Assembly (NCBI RefSeq): GCF_011683955.1
Contig: NZ_JAAQPI010000001.1
Coordinates: forward strand, 682,001 to 746,000
Direction of reading: 5' to 3'
DNA length: 64,000 nucleotides
From: Pseudomaricurvus alkylphenolicus
GTDB taxonomy: Bacteria > Pseudomonadota > Gammaproteobacteria > Pseudomonadales > Cellvibrionaceae
The position numbers were made by a program, and so were the translations under genes. Positions 39,316 to 64,000 of this stretch are shown piece after piece. Each line of letters begins with the position of its first letter. Within the stretch, counting starts at the first letter, position 1. The notes below the pieces were generated by a model that was not told the origin of the DNA, ran no database searches, and worked only from the letters and a program-made list of their open reading frames with translations.

Positions 39316-39458
39316 GATTGGCGCCCCTGTTTGGCTATAGGAATTCGAGTTGGTAACGACTACCAACGAATTGGCACTATATACCGGCGTTATTCAGGAG
39401 GCTGGTTTGAGGGTGTTCAATTGGTGGTTTCAAAGTGCAATAGGGAAAGGGGTGTCGA

Positions 39459-47438: not shown

Positions 47439-48137
47439 CTATGCCTCCAAATCCGCCAGAGAATCAACATATTCAAAACCATGCTCCTGCAGGCGCGGGC
47501 GCATATTGTAGAGGTCTATACCCAGCACCCCCGAGGCCAGCTTCTGGCGCTTTTCCTCTTCCAGCGCTTCGCGGGCGCGACCCGCCTCCAATACAGTTGC
47601 CGTGATCTTGCGCTCCACCACAGTGACACCGTCATCGTCGGCAACCACTACGTCACCGGGGTTGATCACCTGACCGGCACACACCACCGGCACATTGACC
47701 GCACCCAAGGTGTTCTTGACGGTACCCTTGGCGGAAACGGCTCGGGACCAAACGGGAAAGTCCATCTCTTGCAGATCGCGCAGATCGCGACAACCGGCAT
47801 CAATAATCAGCCCCTTAACACCACGAGCTTTGGCAGACGTGGCGAGCAAGTCACCAAACATACCGTCGGTATTGTCTGTGGTGCAGGCAACCACCAGCAC
47901 ATCGCCCGGCTGACATAACTCGATGGCCACATGAATCATCCAGTTATCACCGGGTTGGGCAAGGATGGTCACGGCGGTACCGCCGATACGGGCACCGGGA
48001 TAGATGGGACGCATGTAAGGCTTTAGCAAACCAATTCGACCCTGGGCTTCGTGCACAGTGGCCACGCCCAATTTGCCCAATTCAGTAGCAACTTCGGTAT
48101 TGGCTCGTTCAATATTGCGTACGGCAACGGTTTTCAT
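47439..48137 (-). CDS. ligK: 4-Carboxy-4-hydroxy-2-oxoadipate aldolase
   Basis: 232 residues from ATG 48137 (GAGGTATC upstream; an extension to 48221 overlaps ligI). RraA-like fold with GGTAVTI, the conserved [14 protein letters not shown] active-site loop (Arg and Asp) and [11 protein letters not shown]. It splits the C9 oxoadipate into pyruvate and oxaloacetate, the final step of the 4,5-cleavage pathway. The long C-terminal helix with [11 protein letters not shown] is typical of LigK/HMG aldolases rather than RraA. Confidence 0.92.
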
Positions 48138-48147
48138 TGTTGATACC

Positions 48148-49017
48148 TCAGTCTTCAAATTCGTAAAGGCGTGCGGGATTATCCACCAGCAGTTTCTGTT
48201 GTAACTCTGCCGTGGGCGCAATCAGGGGGATGCTGTCCACCAGGGCGCCATCGTCGGGCATATGGGATTTCATATTGGGGTGCGGCCAGTCAGTACCCCA
48301 AAGCACCTGATCCGGAAAGGTCTCAACAAAATGCCGCGCGAAGGGAATCACATCGAGATAAGGCGGCTCCTGCCGCGTTATACGCTCAAGGCACCCCACC
48401 TTGACCCAAGTATCCGGCCGCTGAGCAACCAACTCACAGATGCGTTCAAAATCCGGATGTTCCATGCCTTTGTCGACATCGGGGCGGCCCATATGATCGA
48501 TGGCAATGGGCGTTGGCAGGTCCATCAGCAGACTGGCAATATCCGGCAGCTCCTGGGACTCGAAGTAGACAATAATGTGCCATCCGAAAGGAGCAATCAG
48601 TTCGGCCATCTTGTGATAGAAGGCGGCCGGCTTAACGTCTACTAGGCGTTTAACGAAGTTAAAGCGAATCCCCCGCACCCCAGCCTCGTGCATACGCTGC
48701 ACTTCTTCGCGGGTCAGCTCTTCACCCACAACGGCAACACCGCGATAGCGACCCTCGCCGTGCTCCAGCATATCAATCATGGCACTGTTGTCGGTGCCGT
48801 GGCAGCTGGCCTGGACCAGCACGCTGCGCTCAAAGCCCAGATGCTTGTGCAAGGCAAACAACTGCTCCTTGGGAGCATCTACCGGGGTGTACTTTCTCTC
48901 AGGCGCGTAGGGGAATTGATCCGCCGGACCGAACACATGGCAGTGGGCGTCGCAGGCTTTGGCCGGCAAAATAAAATCCGGCTTTTTGGGGTTTGGATGT
49001 ACGGGCAGAAACGACAT
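48148..49017 (-). CDS. ligI: 2-Pyrone-4,6-dicarboxylate lactonase
   Basis: 289 residues, amidohydrolase fold. [10 protein letters not shown] at the start, [19 protein letters not shown] and [11 protein letters not shown] are the blocks of LigI. It hydrolyses the pyrone lactone to 4-oxalomesaconate. Its presence implies that pyrone dicarboxylate is an intermediate, made either through LigC (not found here) or directly from gallate-type cleavage. 10 bases precede ligK. Confidence 0.92.
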
Positions 49018-49049: not shown

Positions 49050-50156
49050 TCAGTAATTGAGGGGCACAAACACTTCACCCCGACTCAATAAGCGTGCAGT
49101 GCGCAAGAGCCCCGCCTTGAGCACTGTCGGAGCGGCCATCGCTCCTGTGTTACCTTGATCGATGGAGGCTGGATCCAGCTCGAAGCTGACCGCAAATTCT
49201 CCTGATGGATGTTCCACTTTTAACTGAAGCCAGGCATCCAGGCTCGGTAACCGGGCAATGCCCTCAGCGACTGAGCCCGGCAGGATACAGGCAGTGGACA
49301 CCGACACAGCTCCCAACACGCCAATCGCACTGTGGCACTTGTAAGGTATAAACGTGCGTGTGTTTACCACGCCATCCTCTTGTGGTTCCGAGATCAAACA
49401 CATCTTCGGTACGGCGGCGCCGTCCACATCCCCCAGGTTCATTTTCGGCCCCAGTTGCAGCCTGATGGATTGCAGGCGGGCTTTGAGTTGTTCGTTGGCG
49501 TTGAGCTCAGAGGGTGTTTCCACACCACTGATGCCCAGATCCCGGGCTCGCAACACCACAACCGGCATACCGTTATCGATACAGGTGACCTCTACGCCAT
49601 CGACCACATCGACGAGATTGCCGGTGGGCAACAGGGCTCCGCAGGCCGACCCAGCCAGATCCATATAGTTGCAGATAACCGGCGCAGAGGTGCCGGGCAC
49701 CCCGTCGATGCTGGCATTGCCTTCGTAGCAGACCTCACCGGCGGGGGTCTGTAACACCAGCTCGCAGACCTTGCCACTATTGACCATATGTACGTTGACC
49801 CGGGTTTCGGGGTCGCCCGCTTCTATCAGGCCCCGCTCGACGGCAAAGGCCCCAACTCCGGCCAGAATATTGCCGCAATTGGGTGTGGTATCGACCCGAT
49901 TCTCACCGACCACCACTTGCACAAACAGGTAATCGACGTCCGCATCGGCCCGACTGGAGGGGCCCACCACCGCCACTTTACTGGTCAGCGGATCGGCCCC
50001 GCCGAGGCCATCGATCTGGCGATCATCCCGCCCCACGGCGGCCAGCAGTACCTGATCCCGCGCTTGTTCGTCGCTGGGGAGATCTGATGCCAAAAAATAG
50101 AGCCCCTTGGAACTGCCGCCGCGAAGTTGCATATAGGGTACGGACGTTTGAGGCAT
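49050..50156 (-). CDS. galD: 4-Oxalomesaconate tautomerase (GalD/LigU type)
   Basis: 368 residues, PrpF/diaminopimelate-epimerase-like double-domain fold. MQLRGGSSKG at the start, QIDGLGGADPLTSKVA and TTPNCGNILAGVG are diagnostic of GalD-type tautomerases, which convert the keto and enol forms of 4-oxalomesaconate so the hydratase can act. First gene of the galD-ligI-ligK-ligJ-DUF2218 operon, divergent from the double-HTH LysR regulator (238 bases between). Confidence 0.9.
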   Translation of the reverse strand: MPQTSVPYMQLRGGSSKGLYFLASDLPSDEQARDQVLLAAVGRDDRQIDGLGGADPLTSKVAVVGPSSRADADVDYLFVQVVVGENRVDTTPNCGNILAGVGAFAVERGLIEAGDPETRVNVHMVNSGKVCELVLQTPAGEVCYEGNASIDGVPGTSAPVICNYMDLAGSACGALLPTGNLVDVVDGVEVTCIDNGMPVVVLRARDLGISGVETPSELNANEQLKARLQSIRLQLGPKMNLGDVDGAAVPKMCLISEPQEDGVVNTRTFIPYKCHSAIGVLGAVSVSTACILPGSVAEGIARLPSLDAWLQLKVEHPSGEFAVSFELDPASIDQGNTGAMAAPTVLKAGLLRTARLLSRGEVFVPLNY

Positions 50157-50394: not shown

Positions 50395-51642
50395 TTGAGA
50401 TCAGCAGCTTTGAAAACAGGCGTGGACATTCCCGAACTCAGTTTGCGACATATGAAGGCGATGTTGCAGGTGCACCGCAGCCGCAATCTGACCAAGGCGG
50501 CGCAGCAGCTTAATCGCTCGCAAACCGCTATTACCAAGGCCATCAACGAGCTGGAAAACGATCTTGGTGTCGCTCTGTTCGACCGCACCACAACCGGTAT
50601 GTTACCCACGGTATATGGTGATGCCCTCGCCAAGCGGGTCGAAGAGGCCGAAGCAGAATTTCACAGCGCCGGAGAGATATACCTGACCTTCAAAAAGGAT
50701 CGCAGTAGCTATCAGAGCATCCCGGTGTTTTCTATGGAGATCAGCTACAAACGGCTGGCCTCCTTTATTGCCTTATTCGATACCCGCGATGTCAACGCCG
50801 CCGCAGAGCGATTGGGCATCACCCGAGCGGCCATCTACAACTCCGTACGACAATTGGAAGATCTGCTGGATCTGCCCCTGTTCGAGCGTGACCCCGGTGG
50901 TTACACCAGCACCAGCTTTGGTACAGTTCTGGCCCGTCACTTTAAATTGGCCTTCGCCCAGATTCGGCACGCCCTTGATGATTTGGCCAGCCTTGACGGA
51001 TACACGGGCGGGCGGGTCCGCATTGGCACCCTACCCTATACCCGCACTATTCTGACCCCACGCGCCATCAACCACCTCTTGGAGCACCAGCCACAACTGG
51101 ATGTCTCCACCCAGGAAGGCACCTACGAACAACTGGAACGGGCGCTGCGCTGCGGTGAACTGGATTGTATTGTTGGTGCTATCCGCCCCGTAGATGAACA
51201 CTCACGCTTGATTACCGAGACCCTGTTTGAAGACCAGTTGTCGGTGATTGTTCGCAAAGGGCATCCGCTGGAGTCCCGAAAGACACTCAGGTTAGAGGAC
51301 CTTATGGGCTATTCTTGGGTTCTGCCGGGGCGCAATACCCCTTCACGGGCGCTGTTTGATCGAGTGCTGCAAAATCAAGAACTCACAACTCCGGAGCATG
51401 TGGTGGAGACCAGTTCGCTCTCCACCGTTCGTGGGCTGCTGCTTGAGAGTGACCGGCTTGCGTTGTTGTCTGAGCATCAGATCTATTATGACAAGCGCTA
51501 TGGCTTGTTGACTGCTTTACCCCTGCAGCTGGCAGATACCTATCGGCCTATCGGGGTGACGCTGCGCGCGCAGACAGAGCCCTCGCCTGCGGCGCGGTTG
51601 TTTTTGCAGAGCCTCCGGCATGTGGCGGGGAATCTTGGATGA
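50395..51642 (+). CDS. LysR-family regulator with two tandem HTH domains
   Basis: Up to 415 residues; starts near TTG 50395, with GTG 50422 or ATG 50452 also possible since none has a strong ribosome site. HTH 1 occupies about 16-75 (NLTKAAQQLNRSQTAITKAI, LGVALFDR) and HTH 2 about 117-178 (DVNAAAERLGITRAAIYNSV, LDLPLFER). The usual effector domain follows from about 206. Ordinary LysR proteins have one HTH and about 300 residues. Divergent from the lower-pathway operon, so it probably controls it with muconate-like inducers. The frame is uninterrupted across both domains. Confidence 0.9.
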   Translation: MRSAALKTGVDIPELSLRHMKAMLQVHRSRNLTKAAQQLNRSQTAITKAINELENDLGVALFDRTTTGMLPTVYGDALAKRVEEAEAEFHSAGEIYLTFKKDRSSYQSIPVFSMEISYKRLASFIALFDTRDVNAAAERLGITRAAIYNSVRQLEDLLDLPLFERDPGGYTSTSFGTVLARHFKLAFAQIRHALDDLASLDGYTGGRVRIGTLPYTRTILTPRAINHLLEHQPQLDVSTQEGTYEQLERALRCGELDCIVGAIRPVDEHSRLITETLFEDQLSVIVRKGHPLESRKTLRLEDLMGYSWVLPGRNTPSRALFDRVLQNQELTTPEHVVETSSLSTVRGLLLESDRLALLSEHQIYYDKRYGLLTALPLQLADTYRPIGVTLRAQTEPSPAARLFLQSLRHVAGNLG

Positions 51643-51955
51643 ATCCTCAAACTTAGCGGCTCAACTTCGCCGCAAATGGAACTGTTTTCTGAATGATGTG
51701 GGAGCCCGATAAAATAACTTTGTTCTATCGGGCCAGGTCCAGTGATTTTGCATGGTCCAAACAATCAACGCTTCATTTCCGAAGAAATAACTTCAAGAGT
51801 CGTCGATATGAGTTGGTCAGTGAAGGAGATTCTGTGTAAGCACTGAAGATGACAACTATTCGTGGGAAAAGTGCCATCCCTTTTAGTCGTCCCAGTCAGT
51901 AAACTGAGCAACGAATATAACGAATATACTGAAACTCACAAACAGGAGGACAACT
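51643..51955. other. Intergenic after LysR gene
   Basis: Contains the hairpin at 51704-51733 (GCCCGATA / TATCGGGC with 14-base loop), a likely terminator of the LysR gene, and then the ferredoxin promoter region with AGGAGG close to the ferredoxin start. Nothing else was seen. Confidence 0.55.
51704..51733 (+). terminator. Hairpin after LysR gene
   Basis: GCCCGATA and TATCGGGC form an 8-bp perfect stem 61 bases past the stop codon. It has no clear T-run, so the terminator call is tentative. Confidence 0.45.
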
Positions 51956-52276
51956 ATGCCGCTAGTGAAATTTGTTGAGGCGGATGGCCGAGAATACGAC
52001 ATTGATATTGCCGAGGGCGATAGCGTGATGCAGGGAGCCGTGGATAATATGGTCGAGGGCATACTTGCCGAGTGTGGCGGAGCCTGCTCCTGTGCCACTT
52101 GCCATTGTTATGTGGATGAAGCCTGGCAGCAAAAAATTGCCGGCGCCGATGAAATGGAAGAAGAGATGCTGGATGCCGTGATGGATCAGCGTCCCAACAG
52201 CCGCTTGAGCTGTCAGATTCAGGTGACGGCGGACATGGATGGACTCGTTATTCGCTTGCCAGAATCGCAGTATTGA
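51956..52276 (+). CDS. [2Fe-2S] ferredoxin, putidaredoxin type
   Basis: 106 residues with a strong AGGAGG site. Cluster cysteines Cys40, Cys46, Cys49 and Cys86 follow the C-x5-C-x2-C...C spacing of adrenodoxin/putidaredoxin ferredoxins, which pass electrons to bacterial P450s. Convergent with the P450 gene, it is the likely electron donor. No dedicated flavin reductase gene is adjacent; one must lie elsewhere or be the fused reductase of the dehalogenase, which is unlikely. Confidence 0.92.
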   Translation: MPLVKFVEADGREYDIDIAEGDSVMQGAVDNMVEGILAECGGACSCATCHCYVDEAWQQKIAGADEMEEEMLDAVMDQRPNSRLSCQIQVTADMDGLVIRLPESQY

Positions 52277-52290
52277 TATTGAGACGTAAT

Positions 52291-52330
52291 GTTGGATTAC
52301 GAAGCGCAAAGCGCTTCTAATCCAACCTAC
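52291..52330. repeat. REP-like palindrome family B, single copy
   Basis: GTTGGATTACGAAGCGC and GCGCTTCTAATCCAAC arms pair closely, located between the converging ferredoxin and P450 genes. It can also form a terminator-like hairpin. Confidence 0.7.
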
Positions 52331-52412
52331 GCGGGAAGTTTGCCGATTATCCAATGTGGCAACGGCTGTCAGCACATCACATTGAATGCTGTTGGCGAAT
52401 TGAAGACCTTTC

Positions 52413-53576
52413 CTATCCGTGTTGCAATTTGAGAGCCAATGGCGCCCGGAACGTGGTCGAAGAAATCCACTCCAGTGTTTGATCTGCCTTACGAAGATCA
52501 GGAATTCGCTTCAGCAGCTCTTCCATGGAGGTTTTTACCAATAGGCGGGCAATCGGAGCACCAAGACACATGTGCTTACCGGTACCCATTCCTAGATGAC
52601 CGCGGGGTTTACGATCGAGATCGTATACTTCTGGGTTGGGAAACTTACGCTCGTCCCGATTGGCAGCGCCCCAACATAGCAGAACCTTGTCACCCGCTTT
52701 CAGCGTCTGACCGTGCAGCTCTTTATCACAGGTCAGTGTACGTCTGAATCTCTGGGCGGAAGTATTAAAGCGTAGAGATTCTTCAATGGCGTCCGTTAGC
52801 CGATTGGGGTCTTCCACCAGACGCTCCATGACTTGCGGGTGATCCACCAGGTTCATCATCAAATTGGTCATAAAACTGGACGCTGACTCGACACCCGCCA
52901 TAATCAATGTTGTGGTGGTCATCAATACTTCTTCATCTGAGAGCTTGTCTCCCTCAATTTCCGCCTGCATCAAGTGAGTCAACAGATCGTCCTGAGGATT
53001 TTTCCGGCGCTCTTCCAGCATATTGGCAGCGTAGTCTTTTAACCATTGGAAGGCAGCAATATTCTCCGGCCCCTTCTGGTTGGTTTCCGGGTCCGCCTGT
53101 AAGGCCAGCACTACATTTTTCCGAATCTCTCTGTGCGCTTCCTTGGGTATCCCCAACAGGTGGGATAAGGTGGCAACAGTAACGGGACTGGAAAAGTCAC
53201 CGATAAACTCAAACTCACGCTTATCGATAATTTTGTCTATTTCTTCGTTGGCGATTGCCCGAATCGGCTCAATCAAATAATTGACATTTTTGCGGGAAAA
53301 GGCCGCTTGAGCCAGAGAGCGCAGGTGGTCATGTCGTGGTGCATCTGTGGTACCCAGAGTCCTGCCGGTTCGTTCGGGAAAATCGTCCAACATATTCCCT
53401 TTAGCCGAAGAGAAAGCTTCCCAGTTCTGAGCGGCGGCGTAGACATCCTCATAGCGGGTTAGCACCCAGCACTGGCCGTTCTCACTCCAATAACAAGGGT
53501 AGTCATCCCGCAGAGTTTTGTAGAAAGGAAATGGATCGACGTCCACCTCTCGGGAGTAGGGGTTAAATTCGAACAT
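52413..53576 (-). CDS. Cytochrome P450
   Basis: 387 residues, soluble class I type. Heme ligand Cys337 in GTGKHMCLGAP, ExxR at Glu266-Arg269, and I-helix AGVES at 227-231, where Ser replaces the usual Thr of the oxygen-activation acid-alcohol pair. GAGGA precedes ATG. It follows ligB of module 4 by 157 bases in the same direction. Together with the putidaredoxin-type ferredoxin it may O-demethylate or hydroxylate a methoxyphenol to a catechol that LigAB can cleave; the substrate is inference. Confidence 0.9.
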   Translation of the reverse strand: MFEFNPYSREVDVDPFPFYKTLRDDYPCYWSENGQCWVLTRYEDVYAAAQNWEAFSSAKGNMLDDFPERTGRTLGTTDAPRHDHLRSLAQAAFSRKNVNYLIEPIRAIANEEIDKIIDKREFEFIGDFSSPVTVATLSHLLGIPKEAHREIRKNVVLALQADPETNQKGPENIAAFQWLKDYAANMLEERRKNPQDDLLTHLMQAEIEGDKLSDEEVLMTTTTLIMAGVESASSFMTNLMMNLVDHPQVMERLVEDPNRLTDAIEESLRFNTSAQRFRRTLTCDKELHGQTLKAGDKVLLCWGAANRDERKFPNPEVYDLDRKPRGHLGMGTGKHMCLGAPIARLLVKTSMEELLKRIPDLRKADQTLEWISSTTFRAPLALKLQHG

Positions 53577-53733: not shown

Positions 53734-54576
53734 TTATTCCTTGTTTTCGAGAATCGTCAGTCCATAAGCCGTATTGGAAACCGGGATATGGTAAAAGCGG
53801 TATTTTTCGTCGACTTCCTTATCCATGGCGCCCCTCATGATCAGCCACATAATCAACTCAATACCTTCGGAGCCGGATTCTCGCAGGTATTCAGTATGGT
53901 CAATAGTGGTCAATGCCTCGGGGTCATCCACCAACTTGTTCAGAAAATCGATGTCAAATTCCTTGTTGACCAGACCCGCACGTTCTCCCTGTAATTGGTG
54001 AGACATACCGCCGGTACCAAATACCGCTACGGTGATATCCCGATCGTAGGAATCGATCGCTTTACGCAGCGCCTTACCCAATTGGTAACAGCGGTTAGCC
54101 GTGGGCTGAGGATATTGAATAACGTTGACACAAAATGGAATCACTTCACACGGCCACTCTTGCGGCTGATCGTAGGCAATCGACAATGGCACCGTCAGAC
54201 CGTGATCAACGGGCATTTCATTGCAAATCGTCATATCGAATTCGTCGAGAATCAATGACTCTGCGATGTGCCAGGCGAATTCCGAATTGCCTTTGACGAC
54301 GGGTACCTTTCGAGGACCATAGCCTTCATCGGCGGGCTGAAACTCCGGTGCAACACCGATGGAGAAGGTAGAAATATTCTCCAGGGAAAACGCGGAGGCG
54401 TGATCGTTGTACACAATAATGCAGACATCCGGTTTGGTGGCTTCGATGTACTCCCTGGCGGGCTCAATACCGGCAAAGAAAGGCTGCCAGTAAGGTTCGT
54501 TCTGCTTGCCGTGATCCACAGCGGCACCAATAGCCGGTACGTGGGCCGTTCCAATTCCTGCAATAATTTTTGCCAT
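53734..54576 (-). CDS. ligB: Protocatechuate 4,5-dioxygenase beta subunit (LigB-type, module 4)
   Basis: 280 residues, paralogue of the beta subunit at 28,558. His12 (TAHVP), His59 (YNDH), the catalytic histidine in GGMSHQLQGERAG and Glu in RESGSEGIE are retained. The VDHGLTVPLS and QYPQP blocks are shared with module 1 rather than module 2. GAGAGGAG lies ahead of ATG. ligA lies 17 bases upstream and the P450 gene downstream, so ring-cleavage and oxidation are transcribed together. Confidence 0.92.
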   Translation of the reverse strand: MAKIIAGIGTAHVPAIGAAVDHGKQNEPYWQPFFAGIEPAREYIEATKPDVCIIVYNDHASAFSLENISTFSIGVAPEFQPADEGYGPRKVPVVKGNSEFAWHIAESLILDEFDMTICNEMPVDHGLTVPLSIAYDQPQEWPCEVIPFCVNVIQYPQPTANRCYQLGKALRKAIDSYDRDITVAVFGTGGMSHQLQGERAGLVNKEFDIDFLNKLVDDPEALTTIDHTEYLRESGSEGIELIMWLIMRGAMDKEVDEKYRFYHIPVSNTAYGLTILENKE

Positions 54577-54593: not shown

Positions 54594-55004
54594 TTACTTG
54601 CTCTGGTCTGCTTTGCTGCGGTTACCTTTGATGGAACGCCCCCCGTCCAGCATCATCTGCTGGAACTCTTCGAAAGTCGTACCGTTGCCGGACATGGCCG
54701 CTCCTGCCTGCTGCATGTTAAGACCGTCAAAAATAGCGATTTTGAAGGTGTAGTAGATATTTCCGCCCAGGCGAAGCATTCCCAGCCAGTCCCGCTCCAA
54801 CACGGCAGTGCGCTGCGCCTCTGTCATTGGGAACTGCTGCAGATAGGCGGCTTCATCCTTGCAGAACTCGTCGCGGTTCTCGGCCTTGTTCAGGCTCATA
54901 CAGAACATATTCAAGTGATACCCCTTGCGCGAGTGCTCTCCATCAAACACATAAGTTCCCGGAATATCGTCATAGTCGCGCCACGCTCTAGATCTGCTCA
55001 CCAT
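54594..55004 (-). CDS. ligA: Protocatechuate 4,5-dioxygenase alpha subunit (LigA-type, module 4)
   Basis: 136 residues, paralogue of the subunit at 28,136 (shared DDIPGTYVFDG, GYHLNMFCMSL, LQQFPMTEAQRTAVLER and a lysine/arginine-rich GNRSK end). AGGAG before ATG. Divergent from an AraC regulator by 175 bases that hold the shared operator motif. Confidence 0.9.
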   Translation of the reverse strand: MVSRSRAWRDYDDIPGTYVFDGEHSRKGYHLNMFCMSLNKAENRDEFCKDEAAYLQQFPMTEAQRTAVLERDWLGMLRLGGNIYYTFKIAIFDGLNMQQAGAAMSGNGTTFEEFQQMMLDGGRSIKGNRSKADQSK

Positions 55005-55179: not shown

Positions 55180-56061
55180 ATGAAATCATCCATCCCGCAC
55201 TACTACCTCTATGGCGAAGACGATCCCGTCAACGAGCTGGAGTTTCTCCACATAGAAACCATTGCCGAACGCAATCACGAACACCATTGGGAGATAGAGG
55301 CCCACCGGCACGATAGCCTGGGCCAGTTGCTGTTTGTCCGCGAAGGCTATATCGAAGCAACTCTGGACACTGAACAGCATCACTGCTACGGCCCTGCGAT
55401 TGTCTGGGTTCCTCCGACGATTGTACATGGCTTTCGCCCCAAGCCTGGCACTCAAGGCCATGTGCTCACTCTGGCGGAGAGTTTTTTGCTGCAGGTATTG
55501 TCGACGGCGGAGCGGGAGGAGTTTCCCCAGCTTATGCATACCCCCCTGGCTCAGCAGTTGGACACGGAAGACCATCTCAGTACTGAGCTGTCGAGATTGG
55601 TGCGCTCGATTGAACAGGAATTTCGTTGGCCCAAGGCCGGTCGGGTTGCCATGATCAGCGCCTACTTAAAAGCGCTGATCATCAATATCGGCCGATTGGA
55701 ACTGCATCAAACCGACAGATCGAGCGATGCCTCTCCCCAGGTACGCACTTTCGAGAACTTTCGCAAGTTGGTGGAGCACCATTTTAAAGAGCATTGGTCA
55801 GTGCAACAGTACGCCCAGCAATTGGGCATGACCGAGAGCCGTTTGAATAGCCTATGCCGCAAGGTGGTGGATTTGTCACCCTCTCAGATCATCCACAAGC
55901 GTCTGGTGATGGAGGCTAAACGCATATTGGTTTATACTTCCATGCCCGTGAGCACCATCGCCTATGAGTTGGGATTTAAAGACCCAGCGTATTTCTCCCG
56001 CTACTTTGCCAAGCAGACTGGTGAGGCTGCCAGCCAGTTTCGGGAGAAGTACGTTGTTTAA
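55180..56061 (+). CDS. AraC-family regulator of ligAB (module 4)
   Basis: 293 residues, paralogue of the regulator at 27,138: same opening IPHYYLYGE, cupin sensor (HRHDSLGQLLFV, VPPTIVHGF) and HTH pair ending FKDPAYFSRYFAKQTGEAASQF. The sequence is clearly diverged in the sensor half, so its inducer may differ. No strong ribosome site is visible. Probably activates the ligA-ligB-P450 operon via the motif at 55,091. Confidence 0.88.
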   Translation: MKSSIPHYYLYGEDDPVNELEFLHIETIAERNHEHHWEIEAHRHDSLGQLLFVREGYIEATLDTEQHHCYGPAIVWVPPTIVHGFRPKPGTQGHVLTLAESFLLQVLSTAEREEFPQLMHTPLAQQLDTEDHLSTELSRLVRSIEQEFRWPKAGRVAMISAYLKALIINIGRLELHQTDRSSDASPQVRTFENFRKLVEHHFKEHWSVQQYAQQLGMTESRLNSLCRKVVDLSPSQIIHKRLVMEAKRILVYTSMPVSTIAYELGFKDPAYFSRYFAKQTGEAASQFREKYVV

Positions 56062-56155: not shown

Positions 56156-59100
56156 TTAGATATTGAGAACTATCTCCCCTTGCGGCTCAGCCGCCCGTGA
56201 ACAGCACAGTACCATCTTCTGCTGGCGCTGGGCTTTGCTCAGAACGAAATCCCGGTGCTCGATATCGCCATCAACATAGTCGGTTGCACAAACACCGCAT
56301 ATGCCGTCCGAACACTTTGTATCCACGGCATAACCCGCGTCTGCGAGTGCCTCTGTGGCTTTTTTGTCCTTCGGTACTTCAATCTCGATGCCCGATTGCT
56401 TCAATATCAATTTAAACGCGTGATTTTCGTACTCTTCGCCCGTCGGTGCAGAGAAGTATTCTCGGTGCAGGTTATCCTCTTCCCATCCCTGTGCCAGAGC
56501 GGAATCGAACACCGCATCCATAAACGCCGCCGGCCCGCAGGTATAGAGGTGATCACCCGGTTGATAATCACCAAGCACGTCCGCTACATTCAAGCGGTTT
56601 TCGTCGCTGAAGAAAAAATGCACCTTGTGCGCCCAGGGAACCTGTTGCAGCTCATCAACGAAACCGGCACCAGCGCGGGTTGAAGCTTTGTAATAAAAGA
56701 TAAACTCTTTGTCCTGTGCATGCAGCTCATGGGCCATGGCGATCATCGGTGTCACGCCGATACCACCTGCCATCAGCAGCGAACGCTTGGCGCCCGCGAT
56801 TAACGGAAAGTGATTTCTGGGCCGGGAAATCAATACCGGCTTACCTTCGCGCAGCATGCCATGAATACGCTTTGACCCGCCGCGGCCATCATCCTCGCGC
56901 AGCACACCAATCACATAGCGGGAGGGATCCGCTGGATCGCCACACAGACTGTATTGGCGAATAAACTGCGGCACCGGCATTACGTCGATGTGAGCACCTG
57001 CTTCGAACGGCGGTAGAGGTGATCCGTCCATCGAAACAAACTCGAATTTCACCACTTTGCCGTCCGTAGAGGTTTCTGTACGCGTTTGTAGTTTCACCAT
57101 CATCACCGGCGGCAGTCCTTTCGGCACTCTGTATTGGGGTACCAAGTCCTCCGTCTCTCCTTTCATTACCCGTTCTTTATGGGCTTTTGGCGTGAGCATG
57201 GCGTCGTAGGCCAGAATGCCTGCTTCCCGGTCAATGGGGGACGGCACCGGATAGGGAGGTGGTGCCAAATCCGCCGGGTAACACGCCAGGGTCTGCTCCT
57301 CAGCCTTTACTTCAATGTCGGTATTGAGATCCCGTTGGTTGGTGTCGGTTGCTATCAGGGTTGCACCGGTTTTGTCGGTACGCAGATCCCACCACCACTT
57401 TTTAACCGGATTAATGCCGCCGTTGCCGAGCCAGCCGTCTATTTTCGTGATCCAGGGCGCCGTTGTTGGAAAACGCGTTGCCAGCCATCGATAGGGCGCT
57501 TCTTTAAAAATGCCCTCAAGATTCCAGGGGCAGGTTTTCATACAGCGCCCGCACATGGAACCGGAGTCATTGGTCATGCGGTAACGGGCGCACTTCTCGG
57601 CGTCCGGCTTCCAGATTTCGTAGCCGTTGAACATACGTTTTTCACCGGCGGTAATCGCACCTGAGGGACATTCTCGGGCGCACTTACTGCAGTTACTGCA
57701 AAACTCCTGCAGACCAAAGTCAATGGGTTTATCCACCTGCATGGGGAAATCGGTGGTCACGACACCGCATTTCAGTCGGGGCCCCAGATGTGGATTGAGA
57801 ATCAGATCGCCAATGCGACTGATCTCGCCCAGTCCTGATAGCAGCATCAACGGTGGCTGCAAAACATCACCATCCGCCGCGGTATGATTGGTCGCCGGGA
57901 ATCCCAGATTGCGCAAATGCTGAGCCACCACACCGCCAACCAAAGAAGCGCGCATATAGGAGCGCATACTCTGTGCCGCCGAAATCCAATCGTCTCCGCT
58001 GGCCCCTTCCATGGTCTCATGACCTTGATCCACTAAAGTGGTAATAGCGTATTTGTGGGCGGGCTTGAGAGGTTTTCCATCGGGTGAGTGAGAGTACCAG
58101 ACCCAGTCCGGCGCCTCAGAAATACCGATCATGTCGGCACCCAAAAAGTGTAAGGTGGCTTTGATGGTATCGGCGTTAGTGATCGGGTCGTCGTAACCCG
58201 TTGCCCGCTCTTTGTTTTCTTCAGCTCGTTGCAATATCGCGTAACTGTTAAGACTGGAAGCCAACGTTTTACCCATGGGGTTTTTCATCACCGAAAAACC
58301 ATCCACGGAGGCTTGCTGTGGCACTTCGCCCAAATCGCCTAGGGCAATGCGGACAAAGAATTCCGTGCGCTTCGGAACTCGCGGGATTCGTTCAGCGTCG
58401 ATATAAGAGGTAGTCTCATCCACCCGTTTCACTTTTTCCATCGGATAGAGACTGTCTTTGAATTGCCGACGTGCAAACGGTTTGTGGTCCCATGCGCTTT
58501 TGCGGGAGCCATAACCCACCCACCAGGCGGGGCCCTTGCTGCGAATCCGGTCTGCCAGGCTCTGAAGTGCCAGAGGCAAATCAGGCTCCAGTTCCAGCGA
58601 TGTTGTCACCACCGACAGGCCGAAATTTCGACCGATATAAGGATGACTGAGGTTGCCCTCACTATCGAGTTCAACGACACCTGCGGCGAGAGCAACTTTG
58701 TTGATATCAATATCCGAACTGGTCGCCGTATGTGCCCGCGCTTTAAAACCCAAGGTACGAAGATACAGCGCCATGACTGTGGCTGTTTCGGCGGCGCGCA
58801 GAGCCGCTCTTTGTTGTTGCATACCCGCGATCCATTGTGTGCCCGGCTCATCGGGTCGCGGATCTCTTGGGTATTCCACCAAATACACCAGTGCGTGCTT
58901 GAATTGATCCAGCGGCTGCTTACTGGCCTTAATCGCGGCCTCCATGTTCTGGTAGATCATCGCCAGATTCAATCGCAGATGCACCTTGTTGGATTCACCT
59001 TTCTTCAGCCACTGATCGATATTCGGATGAAGAAAGTGCTGCTGCAAATACATGTCCGGTGTCAGTTCGCAGGCACCGACCACCGCACTATCGAGGAAGT

Positions 59101-59374
59101 AGCCTGCCGCCTTCAGGTGCTGGCTGCGCTCGCGATGGCTGCCAGGAATAGCGGCGGGCTTGAGTTGCACATGGCCGTCACGCAGGGAATCCATTAACGA
59201 CATGTAATCATCCATGGCCCTGGCAATCGACTGCGAATCATTGTCCGGGATCATATTGAAAGGCTGCAGCGAAGGCAATCGTGCCAGATCCGGCTTGGTT
59301 TCCGTACGACCCAATTTTTCCAGAGGATAGGGCCCCAGGTGAACCGGTCGGTTGCGATAAGAAAACAGCTTCAT
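56156..59374 (-). CDS. Self-sufficient reductive dehalogenase (RdhA fused to FMN/NAD/[2Fe-2S] reductase)
   Basis: 1072 residues. Residues about 1-540 form the corrinoid-dependent dehalogenase core without a Tat signal, so the enzyme is cytoplasmic. Tyr427 (WVWYS) falls where the catalytic tyrosine of the Nitratireductor enzyme is expected. Two [4Fe-4S] motifs follow: Cys559/562/565/569 and Cys595/608/611/615. A linker leads to a phthalate-dioxygenase-reductase-like module: RQYSLCGDP for FMN (806-814), MAGGIGVTP for NAD (868-876) and a plant-type [2Fe-2S] with Cys1021, 1026, 1029 and about 1057. This is the BhbA-like aerobic catabolic type that removes bromine or chlorine from phenols. Its start overlaps the aldehyde dehydrogenase stop (ATGA), so translation is coupled. 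Confidence 0.92.
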   Translation of the reverse strand: MKLFSYRNRPVHLGPYPLEKLGRTETKPDLARLPSLQPFNMIPDNDSQSIARAMDDYMSLMDSLRDGHVQLKPAAIPGSHRERSQHLKAAGYFLDSAVVGACELTPDMYLQQHFLHPNIDQWLKKGESNKVHLRLNLAMIYQNMEAAIKASKQPLDQFKHALVYLVEYPRDPRPDEPGTQWIAGMQQQRAALRAAETATVMALYLRTLGFKARAHTATSSDIDINKVALAAGVVELDSEGNLSHPYIGRNFGLSVVTTSLELEPDLPLALQSLADRIRSKGPAWWVGYGSRKSAWDHKPFARRQFKDSLYPMEKVKRVDETTSYIDAERIPRVPKRTEFFVRIALGDLGEVPQQASVDGFSVMKNPMGKTLASSLNSYAILQRAEENKERATGYDDPITNADTIKATLHFLGADMIGISEAPDWVWYSHSPDGKPLKPAHKYAITTLVDQGHETMEGASGDDWISAAQSMRSYMRASLVGGVVAQHLRNLGFPATNHTAADGDVLQPPLMLLSGLGEISRIGDLILNPHLGPRLKCGVVTTDFPMQVDKPIDFGLQEFCSNCSKCARECPSGAITAGEKRMFNGYEIWKPDAEKCARYRMTNDSGSMCGRCMKTCPWNLEGIFKEAPYRWLATRFPTTAPWITKIDGWLGNGGINPVKKWWWDLRTDKTGATLIATDTNQRDLNTDIEVKAEEQTLACYPADLAPPPYPVPSPIDREAGILAYDAMLTPKAHKERVMKGETEDLVPQYRVPKGLPPVMMVKLQTRTETSTDGKVVKFEFVSMDGSPLPPFEAGAHIDVMPVPQFIRQYSLCGDPADPSRYVIGVLREDDGRGGSKRIHGMLREGKPVLISRPRNHFPLIAGAKRSLLMAGGIGVTPMIAMAHELHAQDKEFIFYYKASTRAGAGFVDELQQVPWAHKVHFFFSDENRLNVADVLGDYQPGDHLYTCGPAAFMDAVFDSALAQGWEEDNLHREYFSAPTGEEYENHAFKLILKQSGIEIEVPKDKKATEALADAGYAVDTKCSDGICGVCATDYVDGDIEHRDFVLSKAQRQQKMVLCCSRAAEPQGEIVLNI

Positions 59375-60846
59375 AGTAACCAGCCCGCCGGCGCCGAAAT
59401 TGCGTGTGGCTCCTGAAACGCTTGTATCCCCTCAAAACCAAGGTTACGTCCAATACCACTGCTCTTGAAACCTCCAAAGGGCGCGCGACCATCCTGTGCC
59501 AGAGGTCCGTGTCCATTGAGGTAGGTGTACCCGGCTTCCAACTTGCGAGCGATATTCATGGCACGCTCTCTGTCGGGTGTCCAGACCGAGGAGCAAAGAC
59601 CAAACTCGGAATCGTTGGCAAAGCCAATGGCCTCCTCTTCCGTATCGAAGGGTATGATCGGTACCGCCGGCCCGAATTGCTCCTCTTTTACAATATCCAA
59701 TGCCGCATCAGGATTAAGCACCAAAGTGGGTTTTTGAAAATAGCCTCTGTCGTAGAGATCCTGATCTGGAACCTGTCCCAACTCCCGAACTTCGGCTCCG
59801 GCCCTTTTGGCTTGCTCAATCATCCCAATCACAATGTCGTACTGCCCACGATTGTTGACGGGACCCATGGTTGTCTCAGGCAAGAGTCCATCACCCACCA
59901 CCTGTTGGGAACACACGGCACTCAGGCCGTCTACCAATTCGTCATAGCGGCTGCGGTGAACATAAATACGTTTCAAGGCCATGCAGATCTGGCCTGAAGA
60001 CATAAATGATGCCAGGTACATACGGCGAAAGGCATCTGCGTCGAGCTCAGCATCTTCCAGTATCAATCCGGCATCATTACCCCCAAGCTCCAGGGTGACC
60101 GGAACCAGATTGTCGGCCGCCATCTTCATTACATGGCGACCCACAGGCACACTGCCGGTAAAGTTAATGGTTCTGACCAATGGATGAGTCAGTAACGGAT
60201 CTCCGATACGTGACGACGAACCGGTGACCAAATTAACCACCCCAGCCGGTAGCACCTCAGCTACCCGGCCGATGGTCAACGCAGGTGCCAAAGCCGATTC
60301 CTTCGACGGTTTTATCACTACCGTATTGCCGGCCATCAAGGCCTGGGGCAACTTGGCCCCCAGGATCGATATTGGCCAGTTCCAGGGAACCACCAGGGCC
60401 GCCACCCCACGTGCCTGCCTCGTAATCACCGTATCAAACGGGGGGCCCTGTAATTGCTCGTCTTGTTCAAGCCGCTCGGCATAGTCTGCACACAGTAGAA
60501 AGCGGTCACCAAAGCGGCGCATTTCAATGCTGGCTTCCTGCAGAATTTTACCGTGCTCGCGGGTGAACAGGCTGATACGCTTTTCCAACTCCACTGCATC
60601 AGCTACAAGATGCTCGGCAACACGATGCAGATAAGCCGCTCGTTCCTGATAAGACAACGACGACCACTGGGGAAACGCAGCGGCAGCTGATTCACAGGCT
60701 GCATCAATATCTGCAACGTTACCATTGGCAGCAAAGCCAACCACTTCGTCCGGTCGTGCCGGGTTGCAGATGCTGAACTCCTCCCCCGACAGAGAATCCT
60801 GCCACTGTCCGCCGATAAAAAGCTGAGTATGTGTCACATCTGTCAT
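59371..60846 (-). CDS. Aldehyde dehydrogenase, aryl-type (module 4)
   Basis: 491 residues, paralogue of the dehydrogenase at 30,209. Glu253 (LELGGND) and Cys288 (SSGQICMALKR) are the catalytic pair; PWNWPISILGAKLPQ binds NAD. Its stop codon TGA overlaps the ATG of the dehalogenase, and no gene separates them, so the two enzymes are made in fixed proportion. A halogenated aromatic aldehyde oxidised to the acid before dehalogenation is the simplest reading. Divergent from the LysR gene. Confidence 0.9.
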   Translation of the reverse strand: MTDVTHTQLFIGGQWQDSLSGEEFSICNPARPDEVVGFAANGNVADIDAACESAAAAFPQWSSLSYQERAAYLHRVAEHLVADAVELEKRISLFTREHGKILQEASIEMRRFGDRFLLCADYAERLEQDEQLQGPPFDTVITRQARGVAALVVPWNWPISILGAKLPQALMAGNTVVIKPSKESALAPALTIGRVAEVLPAGVVNLVTGSSSRIGDPLLTHPLVRTINFTGSVPVGRHVMKMAADNLVPVTLELGGNDAGLILEDAELDADAFRRMYLASFMSSGQICMALKRIYVHRSRYDELVDGLSAVCSQQVVGDGLLPETTMGPVNNRGQYDIVIGMIEQAKRAGAEVRELGQVPDQDLYDRGYFQKPTLVLNPDAALDIVKEEQFGPAVPIIPFDTEEEAIGFANDSEFGLCSSVWTPDRERAMNIARKLEAGYTYLNGHGPLAQDGRAPFGGFKSSGIGRNLGFEGIQAFQEPHAISAPAGWLL

Positions 60847-60997
60847 AAGAACACCTTGTTGTTAGATTCTATTTCAATAGGCAGCTATTGAGGTGAAGTG
60901 CCATGTTGCAATCAGATTAGCAATCCACCATTATTACTGGAAGTGAATAGGTAGAATACGCATTATGAATGATATCGATCGAGCCAAAATCTGAACC

Positions 60998-61897
60998 ATG
61001 AGCAACCTCGATATAGCAAAAGTCGATCTCAATCTGCTGAAATCCCTGCGTGCATTGCTCTCGGAACGGCACGTCGGCCGAGCGGCAAAAAGCCTGCATG
61101 TCAGCCAGTCAGCCATGAGTCATACCCTGGCCAGATTGCGTGACACCTTCGACGATCCACTGTTCGTACGCACCGCCACCGGTCTGGAACCGACATCGCG
61201 TGCTTTGGCGCTGGCCCCCAAGCTGACTACGATACTCGACGATATCAGCTCCATGCTGACGCCGGAGAGCTTCGACCCGGCTAATATCAAAACCCGTTTT
61301 CGCCTGCACACACACAGTTTTATTCTAGCCAGTTACCTGGCACCGTTTTTCCATAAAATGCATCTGCTGGCTCCCAATCTTATTTTCGAAACCAGCGGTT
61401 TTTCAGAATACAGTTACCAGCAGCTGGACAAAGGCAATGTTGATCTGATTGTGGCCGCCGGGCTGCAGGCACCATCGCGCTATATGCAGCGGCGCATCGT
61501 AGAGGAAGATCGCGTATGTCTGGTGGACGAGAAGCATCCGGCGCAAAGCCACTGGGGGCCGGACATTTTTCTTAACTACCCGCACGTGAAGAACACGCTG
61601 CTGGACGACAAGGAAGATCCCATCGCTGTTGGTTTGCGGGAACATAAACTGCCGGCGCGTACCATAGGCTTTTATACCGACGACATGCTGGCCCAAGCAG
61701 TCGTACTCAAGGACTCTGAGCTAATCGCCACACTGCCCAGGTCCATAGCCGAGATCGGCCACAGGCAGTTTGGGCACTCTATTCTGCCCTGCCCTTTCGA
61801 ATTGCCCAACGTGGTGATCAAAGCCATCTGGCATGAACGCAGCCAGAATGATCAGGTCCACCAGTGGTTACGAGAACAACTGGCGTCGGGTTTGTAA
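60998..61897 (+). CDS. LysR-family regulator, NahR/NodD-like
   Basis: 299 residues, single HTH (about 9-67: LNLLKSLRALLSERHVGRAAKSL, VSQSAMSHTLARLR, DPLFVR). The DLNLL opening and effector region resemble NahR/NodD-type regulators that respond to aromatic compounds. Divergent (151 bases) from the aldehyde dehydrogenase-dehalogenase operon, which it probably controls. No good ribosome site was noticed. Its 3' end faces a TonB receptor 118 bases away. Confidence 0.9.
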   Translation: MSNLDIAKVDLNLLKSLRALLSERHVGRAAKSLHVSQSAMSHTLARLRDTFDDPLFVRTATGLEPTSRALALAPKLTTILDDISSMLTPESFDPANIKTRFRLHTHSFILASYLAPFFHKMHLLAPNLIFETSGFSEYSYQQLDKGNVDLIVAAGLQAPSRYMQRRIVEEDRVCLVDEKHPAQSHWGPDIFLNYPHVKNTLLDDKEDPIAVGLREHKLPARTIGFYTDDMLAQAVVLKDSELIATLPRSIAEIGHRQFGHSILPCPFELPNVVIKAIWHERSQNDQVHQWLREQLASGL

Positions 61898-62015
61898 GTC
61901 CTGTACATCACCGCTTCCGGCATCCATGCCTCCCGCGGCATACCGTACATCCTGTACATAAAAGACCGCGAGCTGGAACACCAGCCCACGGAAACCACTT
62001 TACGTGCAGACCGCC

Positions 62016-64000
62016 TCAGAATTTGTACCCCAGCGTCACGCCCACCTGGCGGGGGGCATTATAAGTAACGAATTCCTGGCCACCACAACCGGCACAATCC
62101 ATAAAGCCAATACCCCGAAGAACATTGCCTTCCTGAACTTCGTCCGTCAGGTTGGTTGCAAACAACTCGGCAGTGAACTTCTCTTCCTGGCTTGTCCAAT
62201 GCAAGCGTAGATTAACGTTGGTATAGTCGTCCGCACGATCCCCTTCGCGATTCAGGAATGCATAGTAAATCTCGTCGGTGTAGGAGCCTTCCAGTCGCAG
62301 ACGCAGGCTTCCGCTGTTGAAATCCCAGTTACCCGTAACGCCGAGACTGTAAGTCAGCTCTGGGGATCGCGTGAGTTCATTGCCCGAATAGTCTTCGTCA
62401 ATGCCGTCACCATTGACATCGAACACCAGCGTTTCGTACTCGCTGTCCATAAAGCCGGCGCTGGCATCGATGGCCCAAATCTCGCTAAGCAACGCCTGCA
62501 GCTCTACCTCTAAACCGTTGACGGTGGCCTCACCGGCATTACCCGCCGCGGGGCCACTGTTCTGGAATACCTGGAATTGCAGGTCGGAATAATCATTGGT
62601 ATATGCCGAGACATTCAGCTGTAAACGGTCATCCAAGAGTCTCGATTTGAGTCCCACTTCCAATGTATCGACAAATTCGGGGTCGTATACGGCGTCGCGA
62701 CCAGCAGACACGATGGCGACCTGATTGATGCCACCACTCTTATAACCGCGAGCGAGGGAGGCGTATAGCATGGAGTCTTCCGAGAATTTCCAGTCGAAGG
62801 ACAGCTTTCCGGTGACTTCCTGCGAGTCCACAGCGACTTCGTCGACGAACTCCGGTCCAAACAGAATATTTTTGTTCGTGCCTTCCTTTTCATCATCGGT
62901 ATAACGTAACCCCAAGGTCACAGCGACCTTATCGTTGATATCGTAAGTCCCCTGTGCGAACACGGCCCAGGAAGTCGTTTCGACATCGCCGCCCAGTTTG
63001 ACACCCGCTTCGGTGCCATTCAAACCGGCAATGATGTCAAATCGGCTTTCGTAGAAAGTTGAGTAGCGGGTTCCCTTTTCCTTAAAGTAGTAGAGACCGC
63101 CGATCCAGCGCAGATCCCCTCCGGTATCGGAAATCAACTGGATTTCCTGGGAAAACTGTTCCGCATTTTCCGTCAGTACCAGCTCGCCCAGCGCCTTTTC
63201 AGAACTGTCGGTATCCTGATGAGATTCAAACTCCGATTCGCCGTAGGCAGTGATGGATTTAATGGAGAAATTATCGAAATCCCAATCCAGGGTGCCTGAA
63301 ACCAGAACAAACTCATTGTCCTGAGACTCTCTTAGACCTTTTGCTTCTTTGAAGGGGCGCTGGTCATTAACCAAGGTCTCGCCATCCAGTACAAAATCCA
63401 CGGTGCCGGGAATGGGAGGGCCTGCCAGGGTTTGAGGATAGGCCTCTCGCACCTCGGCCTGAGTGCCGACGCCGCCGTTTTTGACGTAACTGGCAGACAG
63501 CAGAAAACTCGCCGAATCATTGATATCGAACGACACGTGGCTCCGGAGTCCGTAGTTGTCGGCGTCGTTGGCATCGGTTCCGCCTGGCACGGAATTTTCC
63601 GTATAGCCGTCGCGCTCTTCGTTAAAGGCAACCACTCGTGCACTCACGCTTTCGCTGATTGGTAAGTTAACCGCGCCCCTGATCTGACGCAAGTTGTAGT
63701 CGCCCAGCGTCGCCTCTATTTCCCCTTCAAACTCGTCCCCGGGTTTGCGGGTAATCAGATTAATCGAGCCTCCCGTTGCATTACGCCCGTAGAGCGTACC
63801 CTGAGGACCGCGCAACACTTCCACCCGCTCAGTATCAAATGCAGTGAACAAGGAGCCTACCGGGCGGCCTATATAGACGCCGTCGAGATGCATGGCGACG
63901 CCAGGATCACCACCGGCTGTAGTATTTTCCATCCCGATGCCACGAATGGCCACGAAAGCCACCGGACCAAAATTTCCGAACTGCAACGAGGGCACCATAT
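62016..64000 (-). CDS. TonB-dependent outer-membrane receptor (module 4), N-terminus beyond window
   Basis: At least 660 residues are visible; the signal peptide, TonB box and first part of the plug lie past the right edge. RVEVLRGPQGTLYGRNATGGSIN (split here as its two halves, plug motif) and a complete barrel ending GVTLGYKF are seen. It converges on the LysR gene. Its position beside the dehalogenase suggests it imports the halogenated aromatic, by inference. Confidence 0.9.
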   Translation of the reverse strand, partial: MVPSLQFGNFGPVAFVAIRGIGMENTTAGGDPGVAMHLDGVYIGRPVGSLFTAFDTERVEVLRGPQGTLYGRNATGGSINLITRKPGDEFEGEIEATLGDYNLRQIRGAVNLPISESVSARVVAFNEERDGYTENSVPGGTDANDADNYGLRSHVSFDINDSASFLLSASYVKNGGVGTQAEVREAYPQTLAGPPIPGTVDFVLDGETLVNDQRPFKEAKGLRESQDNEFVLVSGTLDWDFDNFSIKSITAYGESEFESHQDTDSSEKALGELVLTENAEQFSQEIQLISDTGGDLRWIGGLYYFKEKGTRYSTFYESRFDIIAGLNGTEAGVKLGGDVETTSWAVFAQGTYDINDKVAVTLGLRYTDDEKEGTNKNILFGPEFVDEVAVDSQEVTGKLSFDWKFSEDSMLYASLARGYKSGGINQVAIVSAGRDAVYDPEFVDTLEVGLKSRLLDDRLQLNVSAYTNDYSDLQFQVFQNSGPAAGNAGEATVNGLEVELQALLSEIWAIDASAGFMDSEYETLVFDVNGDGIDEDYSGNELTRSPELTYSLGVTGNWDFNSGSLRLRLEGSYTDEIYYAFLNREGDRADDYTNVNLRLHWTSQEEKFTAELFATNLTDEVQEGNVLRGIGFMDCAGCGGQEFVTYNAPRQVGVTLGYKF

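Follow-up and report, generated by a model that had tools for sequence, protein, structure and literature searches.

The 64-kb stretch of the Pseudomaricurvus alkylphenolicus genome analysed here (contig NZ_JAAQPI010000001.1, positions 682,001 to 746,000; hereafter the window) carries a gene, rdhA, whose product (RdhA) unites a reductive dehalogenase and a complete reductase in one chain and which stands among genes for the 4,5-cleavage of protocatechuate. Judging from sequence comparison, and taken jointly with the route and substrate proposed below, we consider it probable that RdhA belongs to the BhbA clade and acts in the cytoplasm as a self-sufficient reductive dehalogenase with a catabolic role; its anatomy, residues, neighbours and clade can be read directly from the sequence. 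Neither the enzyme type nor the kind of cluster is new: the preliminary description of this DNA, which saw a self-sufficient dehalogenase in a ring-cleavage cluster, was right in its observation, but the arrangement was already known from bhbA on plasmid pBHB. The gene and its parts are:

56156 to 59374, minus strand: rdhA, self-sufficient reductive dehalogenase of the BhbA clade with a phthalate dioxygenase reductase module (RdhA-PDOR); a single open reading frame (ORF) of 1072 amino acids, no internal stop
57155 to 59374, minus strand: dehalogenase part, residues 1-740, matching NpRdhA approximately end to end (phmmer to 4ras, alignment, Foldseek)
58904 to 59062, minus strand: insert of about 50 residues (105-157), not present in NpRdhA (gap between two NpRdhA matches)
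57530 to 57700, minus strand: two [4Fe-4S] motifs, Cys559/562/565/569 and Cys595/608/611/615 (motif reading)
56159 to 57106, minus strand: phthalate dioxygenase reductase module, residues 757-1072 (profile and structure match, motifs)

That one chain holds a corrinoid dehalogenase core, two [4Fe-4S] motifs and a complete reductase with flavin mononucleotide (FMN), NAD and [2Fe-2S] sites, as first described, is borne out by family, structure and motif evidence. RdhA exceeds the cut-off of the NCBIfam reductive dehalogenase family TIGR02486 (220.3 bits versus 160.35, E 5e-65), and among solved structures NpRdhA (4ras) matches residues 1-107 and 158-737 (phmmer, E 5e-165) and the phthalate dioxygenase reductase 2pia matches residues 773-1070 (E 1e-59); with such scores a chance origin of the match is excluded. 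The reductase carries RQYS (806-809) and GGIGVT (870-875), the motifs that bind FMN and NAD(P) in this family, and the [2Fe-2S] cysteines Cys1021/1026/1029/1057; the eight cysteines of the [4Fe-4S] motifs are invariant among 39 sequences. Since phmmer and Foldseek cover NpRdhA almost fully, the dehalogenase part is of NpRdhA length and a putative vestigial second core domain is present. A structure prediction from 39 sequences (mean predicted local distance difference test score, pLDDT, 79.9; predicted template-modelling score, pTM, 0.77) agrees with this: the first 14 Foldseek matches of the model are all to chains of NpRdhA (TMt 0.86-0.88), with 2pia next, although the model gives fold-level support only because of its poor confidence around the Fe-S clusters. 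No twin-arginine signal was seen in the N-terminus (MKLFSYRNRPVHLG), as judged by eye and not with a signal predictor, and no rdhB was found among the annotated neighbours in the window, where ORFs below 120 amino acids were viewed only in 51600-52450 and 60800-62050 and no search was aimed at RdhB. On these two observations, together with the fused NAD(P)H reductase, organohalide respiration by a respiratory RdhA was rejected.

Alignment with NpRdhA, whose reference sequence (L115) derives from the genome of N. pacificus, places its Y426, K488 and R552 at Y473, K535 and R599 of RdhA, and its S422, M423 and F291 at S469, M470 and F340. All six residues, the catalytic and binding roles of which have been reported for NpRdhA (PMC7565698), are unchanged in 92 of 92 aligned rows, four of which are second copies of genes already included (88 rows after their removal). 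Missing catalytic residues had been named as the sign of a wrong assignment; in this sequence half of the test all six residues checked are retained. The six variable columns of the substrate pocket (NpRdhA 290, 307, 310, 311, 419 and 452) read FSSVAA in RdhA (F339, S356, S361, V362, A466, A499) and FSSVSA in BhbA, i.e., five residues are shared and only A466, a Ser in BhbA, differs. The 88 rows split into 12 with Ser307 and Ala452, 74 with Val452 (the larger class, with a MAYxVV pocket in 42 of these 74) and two that are unassigned (NpRdhA and L041).

BhbA of Comamonas sp. 7D-2 (plasmid pBHB, WP_015585978), the first catabolic RdhA described (PMC10463259), has the same fusion and is 55.8% identical over residues 1-1072 of RdhA. 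It is reported to convert 3,5-dibromo-4-hydroxybenzoate to 4-hydroxybenzoate (PMC13101508), the plasmid-borne bhbA cluster being described as one for the aerobic breakdown of bromoxynil to a ring-cleavage product (PMC10463259), and bhbA homologues are reported to be widespread in the Roseobacter clade (PMC13101508). Near bhbA, pBHB carries ligA and ligB, an aldehyde dehydrogenase 63% identical to that of the window, and a sequence resembling pobA (detected with tblastn; missing from the gene table of PLSDB). The two loci differ in that the aldehyde dehydrogenase gene of the window lies upstream of rdhA and overlaps it, in that the hydroxylase near ligAB is a cytochrome P450 with a ferredoxin and not PobA, and in that the window lies on a 1.39-Mb contig whereas pBHB is an IncP plasmid. 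JtRdhA of Jhaorihella thermophila can be likened to RdhA by its description as an RdhA-PDOR fusion with an extra insert, an insert being reported in JtRdhA and related fusions and the PDOR domain in most catabolic RdhAs (PMC10463259); it is driven by NADPH in air and turns over bromo- and iodophenols but not the chlorophenols tested (PMC10463259). NpRdhA (Nitratireductor pacificus; 4RAS, 6ZXU) shares the dehalogenase fold and the catalytic residues and is 42% identical over 690 aligned positions but, unlike RdhA, lacks reductase and insert, and its pocket residues K307, P311 and N452 (in one of two alignments also F310) differ from those of RdhA.

In a quick tree, made with no bootstrap, 12 rows lie on one side of a branch with a Shimodaira-Hasegawa-like approximate likelihood-ratio (SH-aLRT) value of 98; this BhbA-type clade includes RdhA of the window, BhbA, the RdhAs of SAR92 H231 and NOR5-3 and four Nitratireductor rows, and NpRdhA forms a very long branch. 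The earlier remark that few such enzymes have been characterised is fair, JtRdhA being, according to its authors, the only fused enzyme studied in detail as of 2023 (PMC10463259); relatives are nonetheless common, as a single collection scan gave 376 stretches encoding one at E 1e-3, the best 80 of which all align over approximately the whole of RdhA. The name “JtRdhA-type” for the larger class was dropped, the JtRdhA sequence not being among the best 80 of the 376 loci.

The genes that link RdhA to an aromatic pathway, with the regulator genes next to them, are:

59371 to 60846, minus strand: aldehyde dehydrogenase, 491 amino acids, in ATGA overlap with rdhA (DNA reading, domain match)
60998 to 61897, plus strand: LysR regulator, divergent from the aldehyde dehydrogenase-rdhA pair; a 72% identical gene occupies the same place in SAR92 H231
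54594 to 55004, minus strand: ligA, protocatechuate 4,5-dioxygenase alpha (TIGR02792, 141.6 bits, cut-off 108.6)
53734 to 54576, minus strand: ligB, protocatechuate 4,5-dioxygenase beta (NF009903, 445 bits, cut-off 317)
50395 to 51642, plus strand: LysR-type regulator, 415 residues, two HTH_1 stretches, divergent from the tautomerase (domain matches)
49050 to 50156, minus strand: 4-oxalomesaconate tautomerase (NF033377, 506 bits, cut-off 440)
48148 to 49017, minus strand: amidohydrolase, probable 2-pyrone-4,6-dicarboxylate hydrolase LigI (PF04909; 59-61% to the NOR5-3 and Nitratireductor OM-1 counterparts)
47439 to 48221, minus strand: ligK, 4-carboxy-4-hydroxy-2-oxoadipate aldolase (TIGR02798, 374 bits, cut-off 304.5)
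46416 to 47432, minus strand: amidohydrolase, probable 4-oxalomesaconate hydratase LigJ (PF04909; 66% to the NOR5-3 cluster counterpart)

LigA, LigB, LigK and the tautomerase all exceed their family cut-offs, and the link of a self-sufficient, catabolic-type RdhA to protocatechuate 4,5-cleavage holds; the names LigI and LigJ are our tentative assignments. The LysR-type regulator at 50395-51642 has approximately end-to-end homologues in the Nitratireductor and NOR5-3 clusters. The coupling of rdhA to the upstream aldehyde dehydrogenase gene by an ATGA overlap is evident in the DNA, the stop codon TGA of the latter lying at 59373-59371 and the start codon ATG of rdhA at 59374-59372; SAR92 H231 and all four Nitratireductor rows lack this overlap and show a gap of 32 or 155-167 bases instead.

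These neighbours recur beside other members of the clade. Within 10 kb, an aldehyde dehydrogenase like that of the window (at least 400 bits) accompanies 7 of the 12 BhbA-clade genes (the window included) versus 1 of 74 others, PobA 8 of 12 versus 4 of 74, LigB 7 of 12 versus 2 of 74 and any protocatechuate 4,5-cleavage gene 8 of 12 versus 3 of 74; where at least 9 kb of flank is available on both sides, the counts are 5/8 versus 1/42 for the aldehyde dehydrogenase, 5/8 versus 3/42 for PobA and 4/8 versus 0/42 for LigB. The one-sided Fisher values of these associations are near 1e-6 but do not constitute independent evidence, because the 12 BhbA-clade genes form one clade. More telling for the link between RdhA and its neighbours is that gene order varies between Comamonas (Betaproteobacteria), Nitratireductor (Alphaproteobacteria) and the gammaproteobacteria while much of the content is kept. 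For the larger class, clustering of the neighbours yielded no cluster present at many loci; the largest one other than RdhA occurs in 11 of 84 loci, and its representative sits where L090 is annotated with a TRAP permease.

From its BhbA-like sequence, pocket, neighbours and clade, 3-halo- and 3,5-dihalo-4-hydroxybenzoate are therefore expected as substrates of RdhA, which would feed protocatechuate 4,5-cleavage; we infer the substrate, the halogen, the oxygen tolerance and the order of the aldehyde step. In the proposed mechanism, NAD(P)H would pass a hydride to the FMN of the reductase module, and electrons would reach a base-off corrinoid singly, by way of the [2Fe-2S] centre followed by the two [4Fe-4S] clusters; the corrinoid would dehalogenate 3-halo- or 3,5-dihalo-4-hydroxybenzoate at a position ortho to the phenol. 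By the roles assigned in NpRdhA and JtRdhA, Tyr473 would be the proton donor with Lys535 as its helper, and Lys535, Arg599 and Ser469 would hold the phenol. The co-translated aldehyde dehydrogenase may oxidise a halogenated 4-hydroxybenzaldehyde to the acid; 3,5-dibromo-4-hydroxybenzaldehyde is tabled in a review of algal bromophenols (PMC7459620). PobA, whose gene lies at another locus, would convert the 4-hydroxybenzoate formed to protocatechuate, a step to which the P450-ferredoxin pair of the window might contribute; the ring would be opened by LigAB, and LigI, the tautomerase, LigJ and LigK, with LigC of a second locus, would finish the route. By analogy with the family, naturally halogenated phenolics may form the diet, and RdhA may tolerate oxygen.

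Several points weigh against this interpretation. Neither pobA nor ligC was found in the 64-kb window, and the aldehyde dehydrogenase reaches no cut-off among the best 25 of 41 NCBIfam families; its designation as an aryl aldehyde dehydrogenase is not supported by the sequence. The association counts come out too high, since the 12 genes share one clade, four of them are closely related Nitratireductor rows and many loci have short flanks; two BhbA-clade loci whose flanks extend 10 kb in both directions (L011, L012) show none of the 15 counted neighbour types within 10 kb, and another with short flanks (L016) has PobA as its sole counted neighbour. The pocket rule was defined after the alignment had been inspected, and the counterpart of NpRdhA F310 is ambiguous, being F360 in the phmmer alignment and S361 in the multiple alignment. 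Finally, the model of RdhA is weak near the Fe-S clusters and in part of the active site, with pLDDT below 50 at 454-460, 565-577 and 606-614.

The genome places the two missing genes at one other locus. The sole pobA above cut-off lies approximately 320 kb from the window, beside a second fused RdhA (C11:1055007), and the sole strong match to ligC of Nitratireductor OM-1 lies at the same locus. The complete aerobic route suggested for the window consequently stands in part: ligAB, LigI, the tautomerase, LigJ and LigK are there, but pobA and ligC are some 320 kb away. That ligAB is near rdhA and pobA is not would also suit another substrate for the same chemistry, i.e., halogenated catechol-type or vanillyl acids (e.g., brominated 3,4-dihydroxybenzoate, or 5-halovanillate, formed from alcohols and aldehydes of algal or lignin origin), which would lead to protocatechuate without PobA. 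The upstream oxidations would then fall to a short-chain dehydrogenase/reductase (SDR) and two aldehyde dehydrogenases, the homologues of two of which directly flank rdhA in NOR5-3:

42253 to 43032, minus strand: SDR, coniferyl-alcohol dehydrogenase family; homologue directly flanks rdhA in NOR5-3
40619 to 42061, minus strand: second aldehyde dehydrogenase; homologue directly flanks rdhA in NOR5-3

This adjacency of SDR, rdhA and second aldehyde dehydrogenase in NOR5-3, and the brominated dihydroxybenzyl alcohols in the algal bromophenol review (PMC7459620), fit such a diet. However, the pocket of RdhA is near that of BhbA, which uses 4-hydroxybenzoates (PMC13101508), and the nearest relative, SAR92 H231, has pobA directly after rdhA; we regard halogenated catechol-type or vanillyl acids as unlikely substrates.

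The hydroxylase question is further complicated by the P450 and ferredoxin genes between ligAB and the tautomerase:

52413 to 53576, minus strand: cytochrome P450, CYP203A-like (best solved match 8fbc, P450-T2, E 1e-131)
51956 to 52276, plus strand: putidaredoxin-type [2Fe-2S] ferredoxin, 106 amino acids, convergent with the P450 (PF00111; 3hui E 4e-36; putidaredoxins from E 1e-28)

The ferredoxin is the probable electron donor of the P450. The P450 is a putative CYP203A member through its match to P450-T2 (8FBC), which was named CYP203A by its authors; the ligands reported for CYP203A1 include 4-hydroxybenzoic acid, 3,4-dichlorophenol and chlorinated benzenes (PMC7780096). In Azospirillum TSH58 a 55% identical P450 homologue is followed by a ferredoxin 57% identical to that of the window, with a reductase and protocatechuate genes alongside and no pobA annotated in the 17-kb stretch, and in NOR5-3 a 62% homologue lies two genes upstream of rdhA. 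There were 13 plasmid matches to the P450, of which three loci were inspected; those in Novosphingobium EMRT-2 and Celeribacter indicus have no protocatechuate genes annotated nearby. The P450 is attractive as a substitute for PobA because the two do not occur together within 10 kb at any of the 12 BhbA-clade loci and because the Azospirillum homologue sits in a protocatechuate cluster with no pobA annotated, and from these comparisons the P450 of the window may be a 4-hydroxybenzoate hydroxylase. A strict replacement of PobA was not retained as a firm claim: the three P450-bearing genomes among the nine searched (NOR5-3, G007 and that of the window) all hold pobA elsewhere too, and G006 holds neither. 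As pobA is present in all three, the P450 need not replace PobA at all, and it could instead O-demethylate halogenated p-methoxybenzoates (chlorinated anisyl compounds) upstream of RdhA, the diet being methoxylated halo-aromatics; P450, SDR, rdhA and aldehyde dehydrogenase do stand together in NOR5-3. Against such demethylation, the nearest named family is apparently CYP203A, and the reported 4-hydroxybenzoate and chlorophenol ligands of CYP203A1 (PMC7780096), together with the Azospirillum TSH58 context, indicate a free phenol as the P450 substrate, which makes a methoxylated diet improbable.

The distribution of rdhA is patchy. Matches to RdhA at E 1e-150 occur in 3 of 58 related genomes, its own counted, and in none of the five other genomes of the genus (4.0-5.7 Mb), which suggests horizontal gain of the gene. 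Such patchiness would also be in line with RdhA being a detoxifying or side activity, or having shifted to a non-halogenated substrate, with the catabolic neighbours serving plain 4-hydroxybenzoate. The invariance of the six catalytic or binding residues checked speaks against this, and the overlap with a conserved aldehyde dehydrogenase gene argues for a dedicated step; we consider it very improbable.

The genome as a whole (8.88 Mb, 70 contigs, completeness 99.59, contamination 2.1) encodes three fused RdhAs, namely that of the window, one of 54% identity (C11:1055007) and one of 48% (C45:229002), and a fourth RdhA of 758 residues and 49% identity without reductase (C70:198845). The C11 enzyme has the pocket of the larger class and stands with pobA, ligA, ligB and ligC. 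The C70 RdhA (L104:10346-12622) keeps a fused-type insert and the checked catalytic residues and ends at the start of the linker; it lies 373 bases downstream of genes for two subunits of a 2-oxoacid:acceptor oxidoreductase (L104:6880-9972; alpha above cut-off, beta below), a possible alternative electron supply. A broader picture can be drawn, in which the host is a halophenol specialist whose four catabolic RdhAs are split by substrate and electron supply: two with different pockets would feed protocatechuate cleavage, the third fused enzyme would serve another route, the reductase-less fourth would be fed by the 2-oxoacid:acceptor oxidoreductase instead of NAD(P)H, and the P450 with its ferredoxin would be a second 4-hydroxybenzoate 3-hydroxylase. 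Taken as a whole this picture is speculative and rather unlikely. Contig C11 also encodes a 415-residue TIGR02486 protein (L105:9840-11087; 194 bits, cut-off 160) in which the catalytic Tyr and the Fe-S cysteines are present and Lys488 is replaced by Arg and Arg552 by Trp; a ferredoxin-like match (L105:9496-9804) follows on the same strand.

Cobalamin supply, proposed earlier as a check, points to uptake. Three cobalamin riboswitches in the genome are above cut-off, and one (C34:361552-361806) is followed after 136 bases by a BtuB-like match (C34:359544-361415) that scores 416 bits, short of the 600 required by the equivalog cut-off. Of the two synthesis families searched, cobJ/cbiH gave no genome match above cut-off and two weak ones, and CbiC gave no match. 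With these two families searched, RdhA very probably depends on an imported cobamide; if so, this would tie halogen removal to the B12 supply by other microbes. The TonB-B12 receptor model matches 88 stretches with E values up to 0.001, certain genes being matched twice, from which the genome appears very rich in TonB receptors.

In the literature covered, which left out most subscription journals, no prior work on the window locus or on RdhA pocket classes was found; apparently new are the BhbA-clade placement with its pocket, the pathway split over two RdhA loci, the P450-ferredoxin pair, the P450 link shared with NOR5-3, the presence of four RdhAs in one genome and the indications of B12 uptake. 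According to the JtRdhA authors, it is an open question whether fused enzymes accept brominated substrates only (PMC10463259). A BhbA-clade RdhA with a different pocket, in a genome that also holds paralogues of the larger class, forms a natural comparison, and pocket classes combined with differing neighbourhoods provide a testable rule for substrate prediction in a widespread family.

LigA, LigB, the P450 and the TonB receptor all lie where they were first placed. Two further neighbours complete the surroundings of rdhA:

55180 to 56061, plus strand: AraC regulator resembling HpaA (score below cut-off), transcribed away from ligA-ligB-P450 and towards rdhA
62016 to 64000, minus strand: TonB-dependent receptor, 737 amino acids, extending beyond the window end (domain match); a candidate member of the system at most

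From the layout there are likely three transcription units, i.e., aldehyde dehydrogenase-rdhA, ligA-ligB-P450 and tautomerase-LigI-LigK-LigJ, each with a divergent regulator gene. No riboswitch or other RNA was found in the window at gathering scores. A 392-residue ORF with a TTG start at 38188-39366 has no NCBIfam or Pfam match at E 1e-5 and may be no gene. A second LigB-type extradiol dioxygenase (35591-36445; NF009902, 412 bits, cut-off 299) adjoins a major facilitator superfamily (MFS) transporter in another aromatic cluster approximately 20 kb from rdhA.

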